NCBI GenBank assembly: GCA_003153435.1
Contig: PLYR01000061.1
Location: forward strand, 1 to 45,830
Length of the DNA stretch: 45,830 nt
Direction of reading: 5' to 3'
Source: Bacteroidota bacterium
Lineage (GTDB): Bacteria; Bacteroidota; Bacteroidia; Palsa-965
In this document: positions 38,484 to 45,414 of the stretch, in pieces
Layout: every line of letters starts with the position of its first letter
How positions within the stretch are numbered: the stretch's first letter is position 1
Notes under the pieces: model-generated
Told to the model about the DNA's origin: nothing
Seen by the model: the letters and a program-made list of their open reading frames with translations, nothing else
The model's database searches: none
Program-made: the position numbers and the translations under genes

Positions 38484-41129
38484 ATGAACACCATGAAGAA
38501 ACATCTCCGTCTCCTGCTCATCCTCACTTTCTTCTCCGGTTTGCTTTCTGCACAAACCGAGATCCCGGCTCGCTACCTTTTCTTTCCGGCGGAGAGCCTG
38601 AAAGGTTTTGACTTTCACTTCTGCCTTCAGGAACTTGGAGCTTATCATGCTATTCATCACCTGAATGATGCCGAAAAAGATCAGTTCATAAAGACCCATG
38701 AAGAGTCATTCATCCGTGAAAAAACCCATTTGATGCCGGCTTCTAAAGGGGAACAGTTAACATACAAAAATGTTCCTGCAGCTAAACTTACGAAAATACA
38801 GTCAGCCGGTTGTCATAACCTCGACTTTGAAACCGGTGATTATACCGGATGGGCCGGGGATATCGGTTACAATATGAATTCCGGAATGCCACTCACCTTA
38901 TGGGGAAGCGGGATCACTTCCCTGGGCACTGACGCAGCGGAGTCTTCCTGTTCGTATCATACCCTGGTCGACGCTTCTTCCGGCTTTGATCCGTATGGGT
39001 TCTTTCCAATGCTGGATCCAGGAGGAGGAAGTTATGCGGTAAGACTGGGAGGGGAAAAAATCAATACCTATAATACCAATTGCAGTTCGGGCTACGCGGA
39101 TATGGGTGCCATGCAAAATTACAGCGGTGGAGAAATCCTGAAACAGACTTTTCTGGTCACTCCTGCCAATGATCTTTTTACCTATAACTATGCGGTCGTC
39201 CTTCAAGATGGTGGACATCCTACCGGGGATCAACCTTATTTTGAAGTGGATGTACTCGACGGAACCGGCACTCCTATTCCATGTCTTCAATACTATATGC
39301 AATGCACCCAGGGTGTGCCTCCTGCCGGCTTTCAGACCTCGTTTTTCAATTCCGGTGTCTTCTATTGCCCATGGCAAGGCAACAGCCTGAATCTGATTCC
39401 TTATCTAGGCCAGAATGTAACGGTAGTCATCACCGCAGCTGGTTGTAATCAGGGAGGACATTTTGGATATGCTTATGTAGATGCCAATTGCGGACCCGCC
39501 GTATTAACTACTTCCTCTCCTGCGGTTTGCGCAGGTTCAACGATGACAATCTCTGCTCCTCCCAGCAGTCCTGGAACCACTTTCCAGTGGATTGAAATTC
39601 CATCAGGTTCTGGTATTCTGGGATCTACCACCGGTCCAACCATCACCATTGACCAAAGCGGGCATTATGAAGTAACCGTTTCCTATGGTGCCTGCAGCTA
39701 CAGCCTGGACACCACTATTACATTTTATACCTATCCGATCCTCACCGCTTCCGGTTCGAATGTAAAATGTTTCGGACGGAATGATGGAGTCGTCAGTGTA
39801 TCTGCTTCCGGAACCGGTCCCTTTACCTATTCCTGGTTCCCGGCAGTGAGCACGAGTGCTACGGCATCCGGACTGAGTCCAGGCACTTATTCTATTTCCG
39901 TCCAGACTGCTGCGGGATGTTCTTCCTCACAGTCAGTGACCATCACACAGCCACCTCCTCTGCTAGCTTCCGGATCAACCGTGAGTGGAACCTGCAGTCA
40001 GGATAACGGTTCCGCCGGTATTATTGTTCAAGGTGGAACAGGGCATTGTACCTACGCATGGACACCCGCTCCTGCCAATACGCAGACCAATGCCATCGTA
40101 ACAAATCTCCCTCCGGGTATTTATACCTGTATGGCCACTGACTCCAATGGCTGCACCATTCAGGTCATGGATACCGTCATCAATGCAGGAACACCTCCTC
40201 ATCCAACTATTTCGGCCAGCGGAACCACTGCTTTATGTTCCCCAGATTCGGTGGTACTCACTGCTACCGGAGCAAGCACCTATTCCTGGAGCACCGGTTC
40301 AACTGCAAGTTCTATCACCGTTCACAATGCAGGAGTCTATATAGTCTATGCAACCAGCACCTGTGGGACTGATTCTGCTAAACAACCCGTCACCCTCTCT
40401 CAGAAACCAAATCTCGTACTTACGGGAGGTGGCACTATCTGTCAAGGAGACATTGCAACCTTGAATGCAACCGGAGGAGGTACCTACCTTTGGAGCACAG
40501 GATCCAATCAGAACTCCATTGCGGTGACAACTTCCGGAATCTATACCGTAATCAGTTCTAACATTTGCGGAAGTGATACCGCTTCGGCCACGGTAGATGT
40601 AAGCACTGTCCAGGCCAGTTTCACTCCCAGTGTTTCCAGCGGTCTTCCTCCACTGAATGTTATTTTTACAGATGCAAGTTCTCTGAATGTCAATTCGTGG
40701 GATTGGTCCTTCGGAAACGGAGATACTGCTGCCAGTAAAAATTCCTCATTTACCTTTCACAACCCAGGAACCTACACAGTACTCTTATCCGTTACTAACG
40801 CCATCGGTTGCAAAGCAACGCATGAAACCGTGATTGTAGTAAATGAGATTCCATCCTGGATTGTAACACCCAATGTCTTCACTCCTAACGGGGACGGAAA
40901 CAATGATTTCTTCTATTTCGATTCCAAAGGGATCAGCAATTTTCATGCAACCATTTTCGATCGTTGGGGGGTTATCTTAAGTGAGCTTCTTGCTCCGGAA
41001 CAAGGTTGGGATGGAAGGACTATTGCCGGAGAACCGGCTTCTGACGGGACTTATTACTACCTCGTTCATGCTACAGGTGATGATGGGAAGGTTTATGATT
41101 TGAAAGGGTTTGTGATGTTGATGAGGTGA
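38484..41129 (+). CDS. Multidomain surface protein with SprB repeats, PKD domain and CHU_C (T9SS type B-like) C-terminus
   Basis: An 881-residue exported protein with a signal peptide ending near LLSAQTE (either Met1 or Met4 may be the start). Residues about 105-340 form a beta-rich region starting NLDFETGDYTGWAGDIG, like a ligand-binding lectin-type sandwich. Immunoglobulin-like and SprB-type modules follow (NVKCFGRNDGVVSVSASGTG, AGTYS/PGIYTCMATD motifs), then repeated TYSWSTG/TYLWSTG units and a PKD domain with WDWSFGNGDTAASKN. The end (VTPNVFTPNGDGNNDFF, IFDRWGVILSE, GWDGRT, DGTYYYLVHA, KGFVMLMR) is a gliding-motility-associated CHU_C domain. Probable large adhesin secreted by T9SS. Confidence 0.88.
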   Translation: MNTMKKHLRLLLILTFFSGLLSAQTEIPARYLFFPAESLKGFDFHFCLQELGAYHAIHHLNDAEKDQFIKTHEESFIREKTHLMPASKGEQLTYKNVPAAKLTKIQSAGCHNLDFETGDYTGWAGDIGYNMNSGMPLTLWGSGITSLGTDAAESSCSYHTLVDASSGFDPYGFFPMLDPGGGSYAVRLGGEKINTYNTNCSSGYADMGAMQNYSGGEILKQTFLVTPANDLFTYNYAVVLQDGGHPTGDQPYFEVDVLDGTGTPIPCLQYYMQCTQGVPPAGFQTSFFNSGVFYCPWQGNSLNLIPYLGQNVTVVITAAGCNQGGHFGYAYVDANCGPAVLTTSSPAVCAGSTMTISAPPSSPGTTFQWIEIPSGSGILGSTTGPTITIDQSGHYEVTVSYGACSYSLDTTITFYTYPILTASGSNVKCFGRNDGVVSVSASGTGPFTYSWFPAVSTSATASGLSPGTYSISVQTAAGCSSSQSVTITQPPPLLASGSTVSGTCSQDNGSAGIIVQGGTGHCTYAWTPAPANTQTNAIVTNLPPGIYTCMATDSNGCTIQVMDTVINAGTPPHPTISASGTTALCSPDSVVLTATGASTYSWSTGSTASSITVHNAGVYIVYATSTCGTDSAKQPVTLSQKPNLVLTGGGTICQGDIATLNATGGGTYLWSTGSNQNSIAVTTSGIYTVISSNICGSDTASATVDVSTVQASFTPSVSSGLPPLNVIFTDASSLNVNSWDWSFGNGDTAASKNSSFTFHNPGTYTVLLSVTNAIGCKATHETVIVVNEIPSWIVTPNVFTPNGDGNNDFFYFDSKGISNFHATIFDRWGVILSELLAPEQGWDGRTIAGEPASDGTYYYLVHATGDDGKVYDLKGFVMLMR

Positions 41130-41164: not shown

Positions 41165-42676
41165 CTAAGCCTTTGTTTGCTGAACTAAATAGTCCGAAAC
41201 TAATCTATTCTTATCCACCTTATGACTGATATTGTACGGAAACTCCGAAACAACAACAATATCACCAGGGATCATATAGGAGGGCAATTTCTTTTCAAGT
41301 AATAAGTAAAGTTCCTGTTTGATCGGTTCAGGATCTGCTTCTTTTGATAGGATCACAAAACTGATTATCTTTTTAACCTCTGAGTTTCTTTTGAGAGCAA
41401 CGGTTGAAGCATCTGCAATTCCGGGATAGTTAAGAATATGAGCGTTAATTTCATCAAGCTCTATCCGAAAACCATGCATTTTGACCTGATCATCATTTCT
41501 TCCCAGAAAGAAAAAAATACCCTCTTCCAGGTAAGCCTGATCTCCCGTACGAAAAGCGCGTTTGCCCTTATGAATAAAAAACTTCTTCGAATTCAGGCTT
41601 TCATTTTTCAGATAACCGATAGATACATGATCACCCGAAATAATCAGCTCTCCCTCTTTCTGACTAGGGTCACTTTTCTCAATATACAACTCACTCCCCG
41701 GCATAGCATAACCGATGGGCAATGAATTGTATTTTTCTATAATCTCATCCGTCAAAACCATAAGCGAGGTGGCCACTGTGGCTTCCGTGGGCCCGTAAGC
41801 ATTATATAACCGGGCTTGGGGAAACTTGGTACGAAGAAGACGTGCGGTGCGATTGGGGAACTCCTCCCCGATCAGTAAAAAGGTGTTGATTTGGCCCAGT
41901 ATTACTTCTGAAAAAGCAGGGTTTCGTAAATACAAATAGACAAATGAAGGAGTGGAATTCCAGATGCTGCATTGATAATCGGAGATGCGTTTGATAAACT
42001 GTTCCTGATCCCGGCAAACCTCAGCCGAATTCAATACGAGCGAACCGCCCAACGCAAACGCACCCAACAGGTCATAAAGAGAGATATCAAATGTAAATGG
42101 GGCCTGATTCATAAATACATCTTCCACCTTAAAACCATAATCCCTCAGCAACCAAGCTATGAATGTTTGCACAGCCTGAGTGGTAATCTGCACCCCTTTG
42201 GGCTCCCCGGTAGAACCGGAAGTAAATAGAATATACTGCAAGGGATCTTCCTTACTTCCATAAATCCGGCCCTCGTAATCCGGTTTGGTATAAATTCTGT
42301 GGGCTCCGTGGGGGTTAATCATTACCGGTAATTGAACCAGAGATTCTTCCTCACCACAGTGAATCATAACCTGAGAACCCGTAATGGAAGCAATTTTCCG
42401 AATCCGCTCTTCAGGATACATCGTGTCTACCGGCACATAAGGGATAGAAGCATGAATACAAGCAAGCATGGCGACTGGAAAGTATTTTTCCTTATGACCA
42501 TAAATAATGATTGAATGACCAGTGGGGATACTCAGCTTTTTAAAAACGGCAGAAAGCTCTTCTGTTTTCCGTTTTAAATCGGCCCAACTCAGATCTCCAT
42601 CACTTCCTGCTACGGCAAGCTTCCCGGGAAGGATCTGCATTTCAACAAACTGTTTATGTTCGAAATTGTACTTCAT
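41165..42676 (-). CDS. dltA: DltA-like adenylating ligase (amino acid to carrier protein)
   Basis: A 503-residue AMP-forming ligase, the same length as Gram-positive DltA, that should activate an amino acid with ATP and load it on the phosphopantetheine arm of the DltC-like carrier encoded in the same operon. Motifs: LFTSGSTGEPKGV (150-162), NQAPFTFDISLYDLLGA (190-206) with Asp197 at the position that binds the substrate amino group, YNAYGPTEAT (291-300), FRTGD, GRNDDQVKMHGFRIELDEI and the C-terminal lysine region ISHKVDKNRL. The Cys269 linked to D-Ala chiral selection in DltA is Ile269 here (LLIGEE). Last gene of the operon, 3 bases after the MBOAT gene. Substrate: an amino acid, D-Ala not certain. 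Confidence 0.85.
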   Translation of the reverse strand: MKYNFEHKQFVEMQILPGKLAVAGSDGDLSWADLKRKTEELSAVFKKLSIPTGHSIIIYGHKEKYFPVAMLACIHASIPYVPVDTMYPEERIRKIASITGSQVMIHCGEEESLVQLPVMINPHGAHRIYTKPDYEGRIYGSKEDPLQYILFTSGSTGEPKGVQITTQAVQTFIAWLLRDYGFKVEDVFMNQAPFTFDISLYDLLGAFALGGSLVLNSAEVCRDQEQFIKRISDYQCSIWNSTPSFVYLYLRNPAFSEVILGQINTFLLIGEEFPNRTARLLRTKFPQARLYNAYGPTEATVATSLMVLTDEIIEKYNSLPIGYAMPGSELYIEKSDPSQKEGELIISGDHVSIGYLKNESLNSKKFFIHKGKRAFRTGDQAYLEEGIFFFLGRNDDQVKMHGFRIELDEINAHILNYPGIADASTVALKRNSEVKKIISFVILSKEADPEPIKQELYLLLEKKLPSYMIPGDIVVVSEFPYNISHKVDKNRLVSDYLVQQTKA

Positions 42677-42679
42677 CGA

Positions 42680-43843
42680 TTACAACAAGGGGCAGCGTCC
42701 GCTGAAAATGTATAAAGCAAATGCCGCGAGGTTAATCATGATAAATATGCTCAGGTATTTTACGGTCAATTCATTCAGTTTCCCAAATACTACATCCCTC
42801 CCCTGTTTCCGGCAGTTGACCACATAGGTGTTATGAACCGCCGAAAAGATTCCAAATAACAAACCACTCAGGATAAAATTAATTTTGAAACCATTCCAGC
42901 AACCCATGAGCAGGAAGGTTAACACCAGGGCCGTATTCTGTCTCAACAACGGGTAGGCTTTCAGGCCTTTGCGCCGTGTGAAATACATATATAAAGGGGT
43001 GAAAAAATAATCCCTCAGCCATTCGCCCAGGGTGATATGGAATCGCCTCCAAAAATCCTGAGGATTGACTGAAACAAAAGGGTTCGTAAAATTAACAGGC
43101 ACTTCCATTCCCATCATCTCTGCCACCCCAATGGCCATGGAAGAATAACCGGCAAAATCAAAAAACAAGTACACGTAATAAGCATACATATCACTGGCCA
43201 TATGCAACAGGAGTTTGCTTTCAGGGGGATGTGTGTTAAGCCAATACCGGTCAACCACTTCGGCGAGTATATATTTGAAAACAATGCCCTTCACCACTTT
43301 GTTCCAGCCTGAAATAAATTTTTCACTGTTCATTTGCATGAATCCTTTTTCCTCCGAGGATTTGAAATGTGCATACCGGTCAATCGGGCCGATAAGCAAG
43401 GTGGGGGTAAATGCCAGAAAGTTAAAATACGTTATCGGGTTGGACATTGCATCACCAGGGGCTTTGTCCATATAATAACTCATAATCCGGAAACTCGCAT
43501 AAGATAACCCGGCAAAAGAAATCAAACTGTTTAATTCGAAGGGATAAAACTCAAAGCGTATATCTGCCTTCACCAGCAGCATGGGTAATAACAATAAAAG
43601 AATCCCCCAGATCTTTTTTTTGAATTTGAAAACATTCAAGGCTAGTGCCGTTGCGCCATAGGAAAAGATAATCAGAAACAGGAAATGCCAGGGCTTTGGA
43701 TAAACAAGAAATAGAAACAAAGCATTCAGAAAGAAAAGTGCATAATTGTAATGACGGGAAGCAAATATTTTCCTGACCACCGAAAGGAAGACCAGAAAGA
43801 TCAGGATGAAAAAGAAAAAATCAAAGGAACTGAATGGGAGCAT
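42680..43843 (-). CDS. dltB: DltB-like MBOAT membrane O-acyltransferase
   Basis: A 387-residue polytopic protein with about ten or more hydrophobic helices. DltB/MBOAT hallmarks: PTLLIGPIDRY (147-157), FFDFAGYSSMAIGVAEMMG (227-245) and DFWRRFHITLGEWLRDYFF (263-281) with His269 matching Streptococcus DltB His289. The second conserved position, His336 of DltB in the WHG motif, is Asn317 here (MGCWNG, codon AAT), a striking deviation. In Dlt systems this protein moves the acyl group from the carrier protein across the inner membrane. The gene starts 2 bases after the microprotein gene and ends 3 bases before the ligase gene. Confidence 0.85.
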   Translation of the reverse strand: MLPFSSFDFFFFILIFLVFLSVVRKIFASRHYNYALFFLNALFLFLVYPKPWHFLFLIIFSYGATALALNVFKFKKKIWGILLLLLPMLLVKADIRFEFYPFELNSLISFAGLSYASFRIMSYYMDKAPGDAMSNPITYFNFLAFTPTLLIGPIDRYAHFKSSEEKGFMQMNSEKFISGWNKVVKGIVFKYILAEVVDRYWLNTHPPESKLLLHMASDMYAYYVYLFFDFAGYSSMAIGVAEMMGMEVPVNFTNPFVSVNPQDFWRRFHITLGEWLRDYFFTPLYMYFTRRKGLKAYPLLRQNTALVLTFLLMGCWNGFKINFILSGLLFGIFSAVHNTYVVNCRKQGRDVVFGKLNELTVKYLSIFIMINLAAFALYIFSGRCPLL

Positions 43844-43845
43844 TC

Positions 43846-43989
43846 TTAAAACTGTTGGTAAACAAACTGAATGGCTGAATGAGTTTTGTTATTCGGATGC
43901 GTGTTGCCTGGTCCATATAATATGTATAAGGCTAATGCAATACCCGTATAAAGAATCAAGTTGCCAAAGAATCGTTTCAGGTCTTTCAT
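43846..43989 (-). CDS. dltX: DltX-like membrane microprotein (47 residues)
   Basis: A short ORF exactly filling the space between the DltD-like and DltB-like genes: ATG at 43989, one base after the upstream stop, and TAA at 43848-43846, two bases before the MBOAT ATG. The translation has a basic cytoplasmic start (MKDLKRFF), one hydrophobic helix (about residues 8-25, LILYTGIALALYILYG), a short polar stretch and the C-terminus AIQFVYQQF. The last six residues fit FxYxxF, the C-terminal motif of Gram-positive DltX, whose Tyr is reported to accept the acyl group on the outer side of the membrane. Length (DltX about 50 residues), predicted topology, operon position and motif all agree. Identified by reading, not by search. 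Confidence 0.85.
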   Translation of the reverse strand: MKDLKRFFGNLILYTGIALALYILYGPGNTHPNNKTHSAIQFVYQQF

Positions 43990-43990
43990 A

Positions 43991-45181
43991 TTATTCAATC
44001 AAATGATAATTTTTCGCAATAAAATGATCCACTTCATACCATCCGTAGTCGGCCATGTGCATAATATCCGCTAGCGAACTTTTTTCATATTTCGCAGGAT
44101 CTGAAACATATAGATTTAAGTAGGGGAATTTTAATTCTTTGATTTCCCCGGTGATAACATCAATGACTGGATCCAGTTCGGAAAGATTCTTGTAATACAA
44201 TGGATTCAAAGGGGAGATAATGAATGAGGCTCGTACATCTTTTTCTTTCAAAAGATGGAGCAACATTTTAAAGTCCTTCAGTTCCTGATTACAACTTACC
44301 GATACCGGAGCAATTTTGCCAGTACCTCCATGGATGTAGGTCCTGTAATAATCATCATTGATTCCCATAGTATTGGTAGTAGCCGCATTTGATGAGTGCT
44401 GTTTGGCCACACGGAACAGGCTATCCCAATTTAATGCAAAAGGTACTGGTATAATACTGCCTATATTAATTCTCTTATCCGAAGGTTGAGAGGAAATGGT
44501 TCGTCGAAGAAGAAGCATTTTTTCACCGATGAACAAAGGAAGGAAGCAAACTTTATGAACTGGGCTTTTGGAAGCTTTATACTCAAAATTCATGAGTTTA
44601 ATCGGAATGTTTGGAGCATTAAACTCCGAGTACATTCCTGATATCCGTTGTTCTTCATATGCCTTCAAATCTGAATCTATCGTATCGCAAACAATCTTGC
44701 TTAGGAAACGCTCAGAATTGAATTCCAAAAACACTTCCGAAGAGGTCCCGGCGCTGTTTTTTCCTTCAAACCAACCTGGAGAAATGATGATTACAACATC
44801 AGCATCATGGAGTCGTTCTTTATTCGCAAGCAATTGGCTATAGATTGAAAAACACTGATTACCGGCATGTCCTATGGCCCTCACCTGCGTATTGAAATAT
44901 TTTGAAATAAACCGATAGGGGATCGCTTCCGAAGGGGTACTCAATTCTGAAGATCCAAGGAGATAAATTACAGGACGGGAAGATCCGCTCCCTAAAAATT
45001 GATCTTCATATTCAACCCGGTCCTTGAAATAAGGGATGTAGTCAAAAGCAGGCTCAGGTGTCACAACAGAACTTCTCGAATGCCAGAGCAAGGAGCTAAA
45101 TTTTTCATTTGAACTGAGCCAGCTAATGGTAAGAAGCGCAATTACGAAAGGAAGTAGATAAACCAGAGCAATCTTCCTCAA
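43991..45181 (-). CDS. dltD: DltD-like SGNH-type periplasmic acyltransferase
   Basis: A 396-residue protein with one N-terminal membrane anchor (KIALVYLLPFVIALLTISWL) and a periplasmic domain. The block YLLGSSELSTPSEAIPYRF holds the DltD nucleophile motif (GSSE, Ser77/Ser78), ADVVIIISPGWF is the second DltD block, and the C-terminal DIMHMADYGW provides an Asp372-x-x-His375 pair, the spacing of the DltD catalytic Asp and His. In Gram-positives DltD makes the final transfer of D-Ala to lipoteichoic acid; here the acceptor must be a different envelope polymer or lipid. It starts 5 bases after the carrier gene and is followed one base later by the microprotein. Confidence 0.8.
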   Translation of the reverse strand: MRKIALVYLLPFVIALLTISWLSSNEKFSSLLWHSRSSVVTPEPAFDYIPYFKDRVEYEDQFLGSGSSRPVIYLLGSSELSTPSEAIPYRFISKYFNTQVRAIGHAGNQCFSIYSQLLANKERLHDADVVIIISPGWFEGKNSAGTSSEVFLEFNSERFLSKIVCDTIDSDLKAYEEQRISGMYSEFNAPNIPIKLMNFEYKASKSPVHKVCFLPLFIGEKMLLLRRTISSQPSDKRINIGSIIPVPFALNWDSLFRVAKQHSSNAATTNTMGINDDYYRTYIHGGTGKIAPVSVSCNQELKDFKMLLHLLKEKDVRASFIISPLNPLYYKNLSELDPVIDVITGEIKELKFPYLNLYVSDPAKYEKSSLADIMHMADYGWYEVDHFIAKNYHLIE

Positions 45182-45186
45182 GTAAA

Positions 45187-45414
45187 TTAGAGTGTTTGAA
45201 TGGTAGAAGTCATCAAATCGATCGTGTCCAGATGTTCCGGGTTGACAAGATGTTGAGGTATTTGTTTCCCGATTTTTTCTTCAATGGAGACAAGCAGGTC
45301 AACCACAATAATTGAATCCAGTAGCTTAGATTTGATTAGAGATTCATCGAAGCTGACCTTCTTGAATATCAAGCCTCCTATTTCCTGCTGAATGAATATC
45401 TTAAGTGCCTCCAT
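45187..45414 (-). CDS. dltC: DltC-like acyl carrier protein
   Basis: A 75-residue acidic helical carrier protein. The phosphopantetheine site is Ser34 in LLDSIIVVDLLVSIEEKIG, where the usual DSL is DSI. Size and the LLDS motif fit DltC-type carriers, which hold the amino acid activated by DltA and present it to DltB. It is the first gene of the five-gene operon, reversed relative to the Gram-positive order dltX-A-B-C-D (here C-D-X-B-A). A role as a general fatty acid ACP is unlikely given the context. Confidence 0.85.
   Translation of the reverse strand: MEALKIFIQQEIGGLIFKKVSFDESLIKSKLLDSIIVVDLLVSIEEKIGKQIPQHLVNPEHLDTIDLMTSTIQTL

Follow-up and report, generated by a model that had tools for sequence, protein, structure and literature searches.

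A Gram-negative Dlt-like operon whose MBOAT protein carries asparagine at the position of the invariant histidine

Known MBOAT systems and the operon in the window

In the Dlt system, D-alanine is moved by DltB from DltC to an invariant tyrosine of DltX (FxYxxF) and is then moved on by DltD (PMC12148441). The histidine of the MBOAT superfamily has been termed universally conserved and required, in DltB as well as in PatA; PatA is inactivated by its change to alanine, and DltB and further MBOATs are inactive once they lose it; the case for this histidine as the general base is built chiefly on loss-of-function mutants (PMC12148441). Function is likewise abolished by a His-to-Leu change in yeast Gup1, and mammalian HHATL, with leucine at this position, was reported as the only exception to the invariant histidine found to that date (PMC5831804). 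HHATL was also the only MBOAT protein without this residue that we found in the literature, of which our coverage was partial. Given that the histidine is required in DltB and PatA, its loss in an entire clade, as described here, is notable. Gram-negative dlt genes are known from Dickeya dadantii, which has dltBAC together with dltD and in which a dltB mutant loses polymyxin resistance (PMC3544676).

The window analyzed here, by which we mean the whole stretch of 45,830 nucleotides from a Bacteroidota bacterium (contig PLYR01000061.1), ends in an operon of five genes, all on the minus strand (Table 1). The initial annotation had proposed the gene order C-D-X-B-A and intact frames throughout; the coordinates of the five genes bear out the former, and every frame was found open. 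DltB, DltD, and DltA are the best NCBIfam families of the three large proteins, each with a score under the equivalog cut-off: the DltB-like protein matches TIGR04091 over its full length at 238 bits (E = 1.6e-70, cut-off 375), the DltD-like protein matches TIGR04092 at 112.7 bits (cut-off 150), and the DltA-like protein matches TIGR01734 at 406 bits (cut-off 560). The carrier protein also falls under the DltC equivalog cut-off, and together these scores point to a divergent, Dlt-like set. At the level of Pfam, the DltB-like protein reaches 55.6 bits against PF03062 (MBOAT, cut-off 27), and the DltA-like protein reaches 202 bits against PF00501 (AMP-binding), above the cut-off. The DltX-like microprotein has no Pfam or NCBIfam match despite its clear FVYQQF, and genes of this kind are easily overlooked in annotation. 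Convergent with the operon, positions 38484-41129 of the plus strand encode a large repeat-bearing protein whose C-terminal domain resembles secreted Bacteroidota surface proteins.

Table 1. Coordinates of the operon, of selected codons, and of the related plasmid operons (plasmid positions are those of the respective locus).
Feature	Coordinates	Strand	Remarks
DltC-like carrier protein	45187-45414	(-)	75 aa; Ser site LLDSI; weak matches to several carrier-protein families
DltD-like SGNH protein	43991-45181	(-)	TTG start as listed; PF04914 158 bits (cut-off 22.7); GSSE and DxxH motifs present
DltX-like membrane microprotein	43846-43989	(-)	open frame, 47 aa from ATG; C-terminal FVYQQF
Putative acyl-shuttle Tyr codon of the DltX-like microprotein	43858-43860	(-)	
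DltB-like MBOAT protein	42680-43843	(-)	387 aa; invariant His replaced by Asn
Codon 317 of the DltB-like gene	42893-42895	(-)	AAT = Asn; position of DltB His336
Codon 269 of the DltB-like gene	43037-43039	(-)	retained His = DltB His289
Codon 337 of the DltB-like gene	42833-42835	(-)	clade-specific His
Codon 330 of the DltB-like gene	42854-42856	(-)	Phe at DltB His349 ([YF]HG His)
DltA-like adenylating enzyme	41165-42676	(-)	503 aa; Ile where DltA has the FCGE Cys
Plasmid operon copies	L077:2460-6512, L110:3460-7512, L111:1-2243		last copy partial

The closest described relative is the DltB of Streptococcus thermophilus (6bug/8jem), which was matched by phmmer against PDB sequences at E = 2e-31. 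The AlphaFold model of the DltB-like protein (mean pLDDT 74.6, lower in confidence at 255-273) adopts the DltB fold over 372-373 residues, with Z-scores of 32.7-32.9 to 6bug/8jem and of 24-27 to PORCN, HHAT, and MBOAT7. Besides the fold, Gram-positive DltBs share with it the C-terminal FSG (here YIFSGRCPLL, with FxYxxF on a separate open reading frame) and the first of the two conserved histidines, and the Gram-positive dltXABCD operon supplies the same set of partners, among them a DltX bearing FxYxxF. The window protein is, however, 23-24% identical to S. thermophilus DltB in the structural alignment, and its operon differs from dltXABCD in gene order and in belonging to a Gram-negative host. 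PatA and AlgI likewise combine an MBOAT protein, an SGNH enzyme, and a tyrosine shuttle motif (PMC12148441), but they draw on acetyl-CoA, bear the tyrosine motif at the C-terminus of the MBOAT protein itself, and have not lost the histidine; the operon described here instead has a carrier protein and places the motif on a microprotein of its own. HHATL resembles the window protein in being an MBOAT protein without the invariant histidine (PMC5831804), yet it is a lone eukaryotic protein that is believed not to be an acyltransferase, in contrast to an asparagine found within a complete bacterial acylation operon.

Residue 317 in the relatives of the DltB-like protein

In the phmmer alignment to the PDB sequences, MGCWN(317)G stands opposite MGFWH(336)G of S. 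thermophilus DltB without a gap in the motif, and RFH(269) stands opposite RWH(289), which equates His269 with DltB His289. The W-H-G-type histidine that is invariant in the MBOAT superfamily is absent and Asn317 takes its place. The initial annotation had read the codon in the same manner, and its claim of an asparagine (AAT) at the conserved position is upheld by the codon itself and by the gapless alignment to His336; its further observation, that the other histidine is kept at a normal spacing (48 against 47), agrees with the alignment to 6bug/8jem.

Across the sequences that were aligned, residue 317 is asparagine in all 23 members of the clade, which come from two phyla and range down to 33% identity to the window protein, and histidine in 61 of 61 other MBOATs (29 from the first searches and 32 further ones) and in 7 of 7 Gram-positive DltBs (five at first, with two more added for the tree). 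The first searches recovered 13 genome-contig loci, to which the relatives search added two, all with asparagine, while the 29 other MBOATs found by the same searches, including the two paralogues in the window genome (L002 and L003), all have histidine; the Gram-positive DltBs, from Niallia, lactobacilli, and Enterococcus, read WHG. As the search patterns for the genome contigs included MGCWNGFK, most of these matches were biased toward asparagine and were excluded as independent proof, and the survey was therefore repeated on the DltD family, which is blind to the residue in DltB. Twelve of 395 genomes chosen as relatives have DltD, spanning 10 families, and all 12 of these DltD-selected Bacteroidota operons show the order C-D-X-B-A, with a microprotein ending in F[VI]YQQF and an adjoining DltB-like gene with M-G-x-W-N-G. 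The conservation check that the initial annotation had proposed for homologues from C-D-X-B-A operons is thereby answered (asparagine in 12 of 12), and the close relatives, which it had allowed might all carry histidine, instead all carry asparagine.

The Bacteroidota proteins of the clade range from 69% down to 42% identity to the window protein. When 395 genomes were drawn evenly across the phylum, DltD was present in the window genome only, and the system is thus rare and scattered. No Asn-type relative was found in the viral contigs searched. Flanking genes vary among the loci (TMEM175, M23 peptidase, rhomboid, DUF4290, proline dehydrogenase, aldehyde dehydrogenase, and VWA), and no conserved neighbor gene that would reveal the acceptor polymer was found across the clade loci.

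Outside Bacteroidota, a tblastn search of plasmids revealed an Asn-type operon in the order DltD-X-B-A-C on a Klebsiella electrica plasmid, whose DltB (MGAWNGL) is 33% identical to the window protein, whose microprotein ends in FEYQKF, and whose DltD has IGASEVS in place of GSSE. The DltB of an Enterobacter cloacae plasmid is identical to that of the K. electrica plasmid, and a K. pneumoniae plasmid record matches the operon partially, at the start of the record. IS elements adjoin the plasmid operon, which had no match in 20,395 E. coli records; among Proteobacteria, the search was confined to plasmids and these E. coli records.

A tree built with the residue-317 column left out recovers the Asn proteins as a single group (support 100/95) with the Gram-positive DltBs as its sister, the two being jointly separated from the other MBOATs (support 100/99), and a single change of residue 317 suffices on this tree; the placement of the Klebsiella row, which has a long branch, is less sure. 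The tree length within the Asn clade amounts to about 11.5 substitutions per site, over which the asparagine is never altered, and it is encoded by AAT in 14 members and by AAC in nine. For a close pair, dN was 0.061 and dS 0.73 (dN/dS ~0.08). Judged from these sequences, both the asparagine at residue 317 and the gene itself are maintained. Two short His-type MBOATs of Bacteroidota (L024, an open frame of 420 aa, and L058, one of 372 aa) branch beside the DltB group on long branches.

Linked changes, partner proteins, and possible mechanisms

The asparagine is accompanied by further changes in the MBOAT site, at positions 326, 330, 334, and 337. The histidine at DltB position 349 is shared by all five Gram-positive DltBs compared and by 13 of the 15 other MBOATs, but gives way to Phe330 in 21 of the 23 clade members; DltB Tyr345 is replaced by Ser326 in all 23; and a histidine absent from Gram-positive DltBs, His337, is present in 22, Klebsiella included. 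His269 is invariant in the Asn clade, the Gram-positive DltBs, and the other MBOATs alike. Changes at several positions indicate a site that was rebuilt rather than hit once. Among the partner proteins, DltC, DltD, and DltA are present in every complete clade operon, as is a DltX-like microprotein with FxYxxF at its C-terminus, which preserves the presumed acyl-accepting tyrosine. The carrier serine (DSI motif), the GSSE and DxxH motifs of DltD, and the core motifs of DltA are conserved in the clade, with the Klebsiella DltD departing from GSSE.

Taken together, the operon is likely a working Gram-negative Dlt-like machine in which the MBOAT step proceeds without the canonical histidine; with the remaining components intact and selection acting on them, the enzyme probably works in the absence of this residue. 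By homology, the DltA-like enzyme would charge the DltC-like carrier with an amino acid, which the MBOAT protein would pass via a membrane channel to the tyrosine of the DltX-like microprotein (the role of this tyrosine as acceptor being taken from PMC12148441), and which the DltD-like SGNH enzyme would then move to an envelope polymer; we infer the order and direction of these transfers by analogy with the Gram-positive system and PatA. In the MBOAT step, the part of Asn317 would probably be confined to positioning or polarizing either the thioester or the tyrosine hydroxyl, while the proton would pass to another group, for which His269, His337, the alpha-amine of the aminoacyl substrate, and water are candidates. 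A tyrosine hydroxyl and an aminoacyl thioester would make a relatively easy pair, either of which the asparagine could orient. We lean, with some reserve, toward the broader reading that the whole clade catalyzes transmembrane aminoacyl transfer to the tyrosine shuttle without the histidine, with Asn317 acting beside another proton acceptor, be it His269, the newly gained His337, or the amine of the substrate, which would make the histidine dispensable once the site has been rebuilt.

A non-catalytic role is nevertheless conceivable, given that loss of the histidine abolishes the activity of PatA, DltB, and other MBOATs and the function of Gup1. The MBOAT protein may now serve solely as a channel or scaffold, guiding the carrier arm to DltX or DltD, with transfer to the tyrosine or to the DltD serine taking place without MBOAT catalysis, which would fit the loss of both the catalytic and the second conserved histidine and the doubts about HHATL, the other named exception, as an acyltransferase (PMC5831804). 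We regard this as unlikely: apart from the asparagine the W-x-G loop is kept, His269 and the DltX tyrosine persist, and the fixation of one polar residue at an active-site position would be unexpected of a scaffold. The invariance of the asparagine itself in all 23 members likewise speaks against a pure conduit.

Somewhat more doubtful is that the change was driven by the substrate, an amino acid other than D-alanine, with asparagine as an adaptation to it rather than as a sign of a changed catalytic principle. In DltA structures, the FCGE cysteine of the Gram-positive enzymes contributes to the selection of D-alanine, and the clade DltAs fall into two kinds, one with this cysteine and one with Ile, Met, or Ala in its place; the latter kind is found in the window and in many relatives, L033, L035, and L036 among them, which would suit such an adaptation. 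Each kind occurs with Asn-type DltBs, however, and asparagine is independent of the DltA position, being present also beside the Cys-type enzymes of L034, L037, L040, L043, L103, L106, and L107; no link between Asn317 and the DltA pocket residue was found in the table of clade DltA motifs. Operons whose DltBs are close relatives can still differ in the kind of DltA they encode, which gives the impression that the adenylating gene was swapped within the operon.

An alignment slip, in which the real counterpart of His336 would be another histidine such as the conserved and clade-specific His337, is highly improbable, as M-G-x-W-[HN]-G is gapless in the PDB-sequence alignment and in the MAFFT sets of all classes, and His337 lies 20 residues downstream, well within the next predicted helix (321-347). 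Least credible of all is a recent loss of the histidine in the window genome or a sequencing error, for which one base change (CAT to AAT) would suffice: such a local event is ruled out by asparagine in 22 further sequences from independent assemblies, in two codons, together with purifying selection and intact frames. Of the two possibilities left by the initial annotation, a functional variant with a changed mechanism or an impaired locus, the clade-wide asparagine, the intact frames, and the purifying selection argue against the second, and the first is favored here as the probable reading. The remaining histidine, to which the initial annotation had looked for the changed mechanism, is one candidate among several, the loss of the second conserved histidine and the gain of His337 being changes that it did not mention.

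Significance for the MBOAT family

The Asn clade marks a Gram-negative type of Dlt system that occurs in two phyla and is carried by plasmids in Enterobacteriaceae. The human MBOATs (PORCN, HHAT, GOAT, and DGAT1) are reasoned about through the histidine, and a natural clade with asparagine in its place and an otherwise complete machine offers a ready-made test of the role of this residue.
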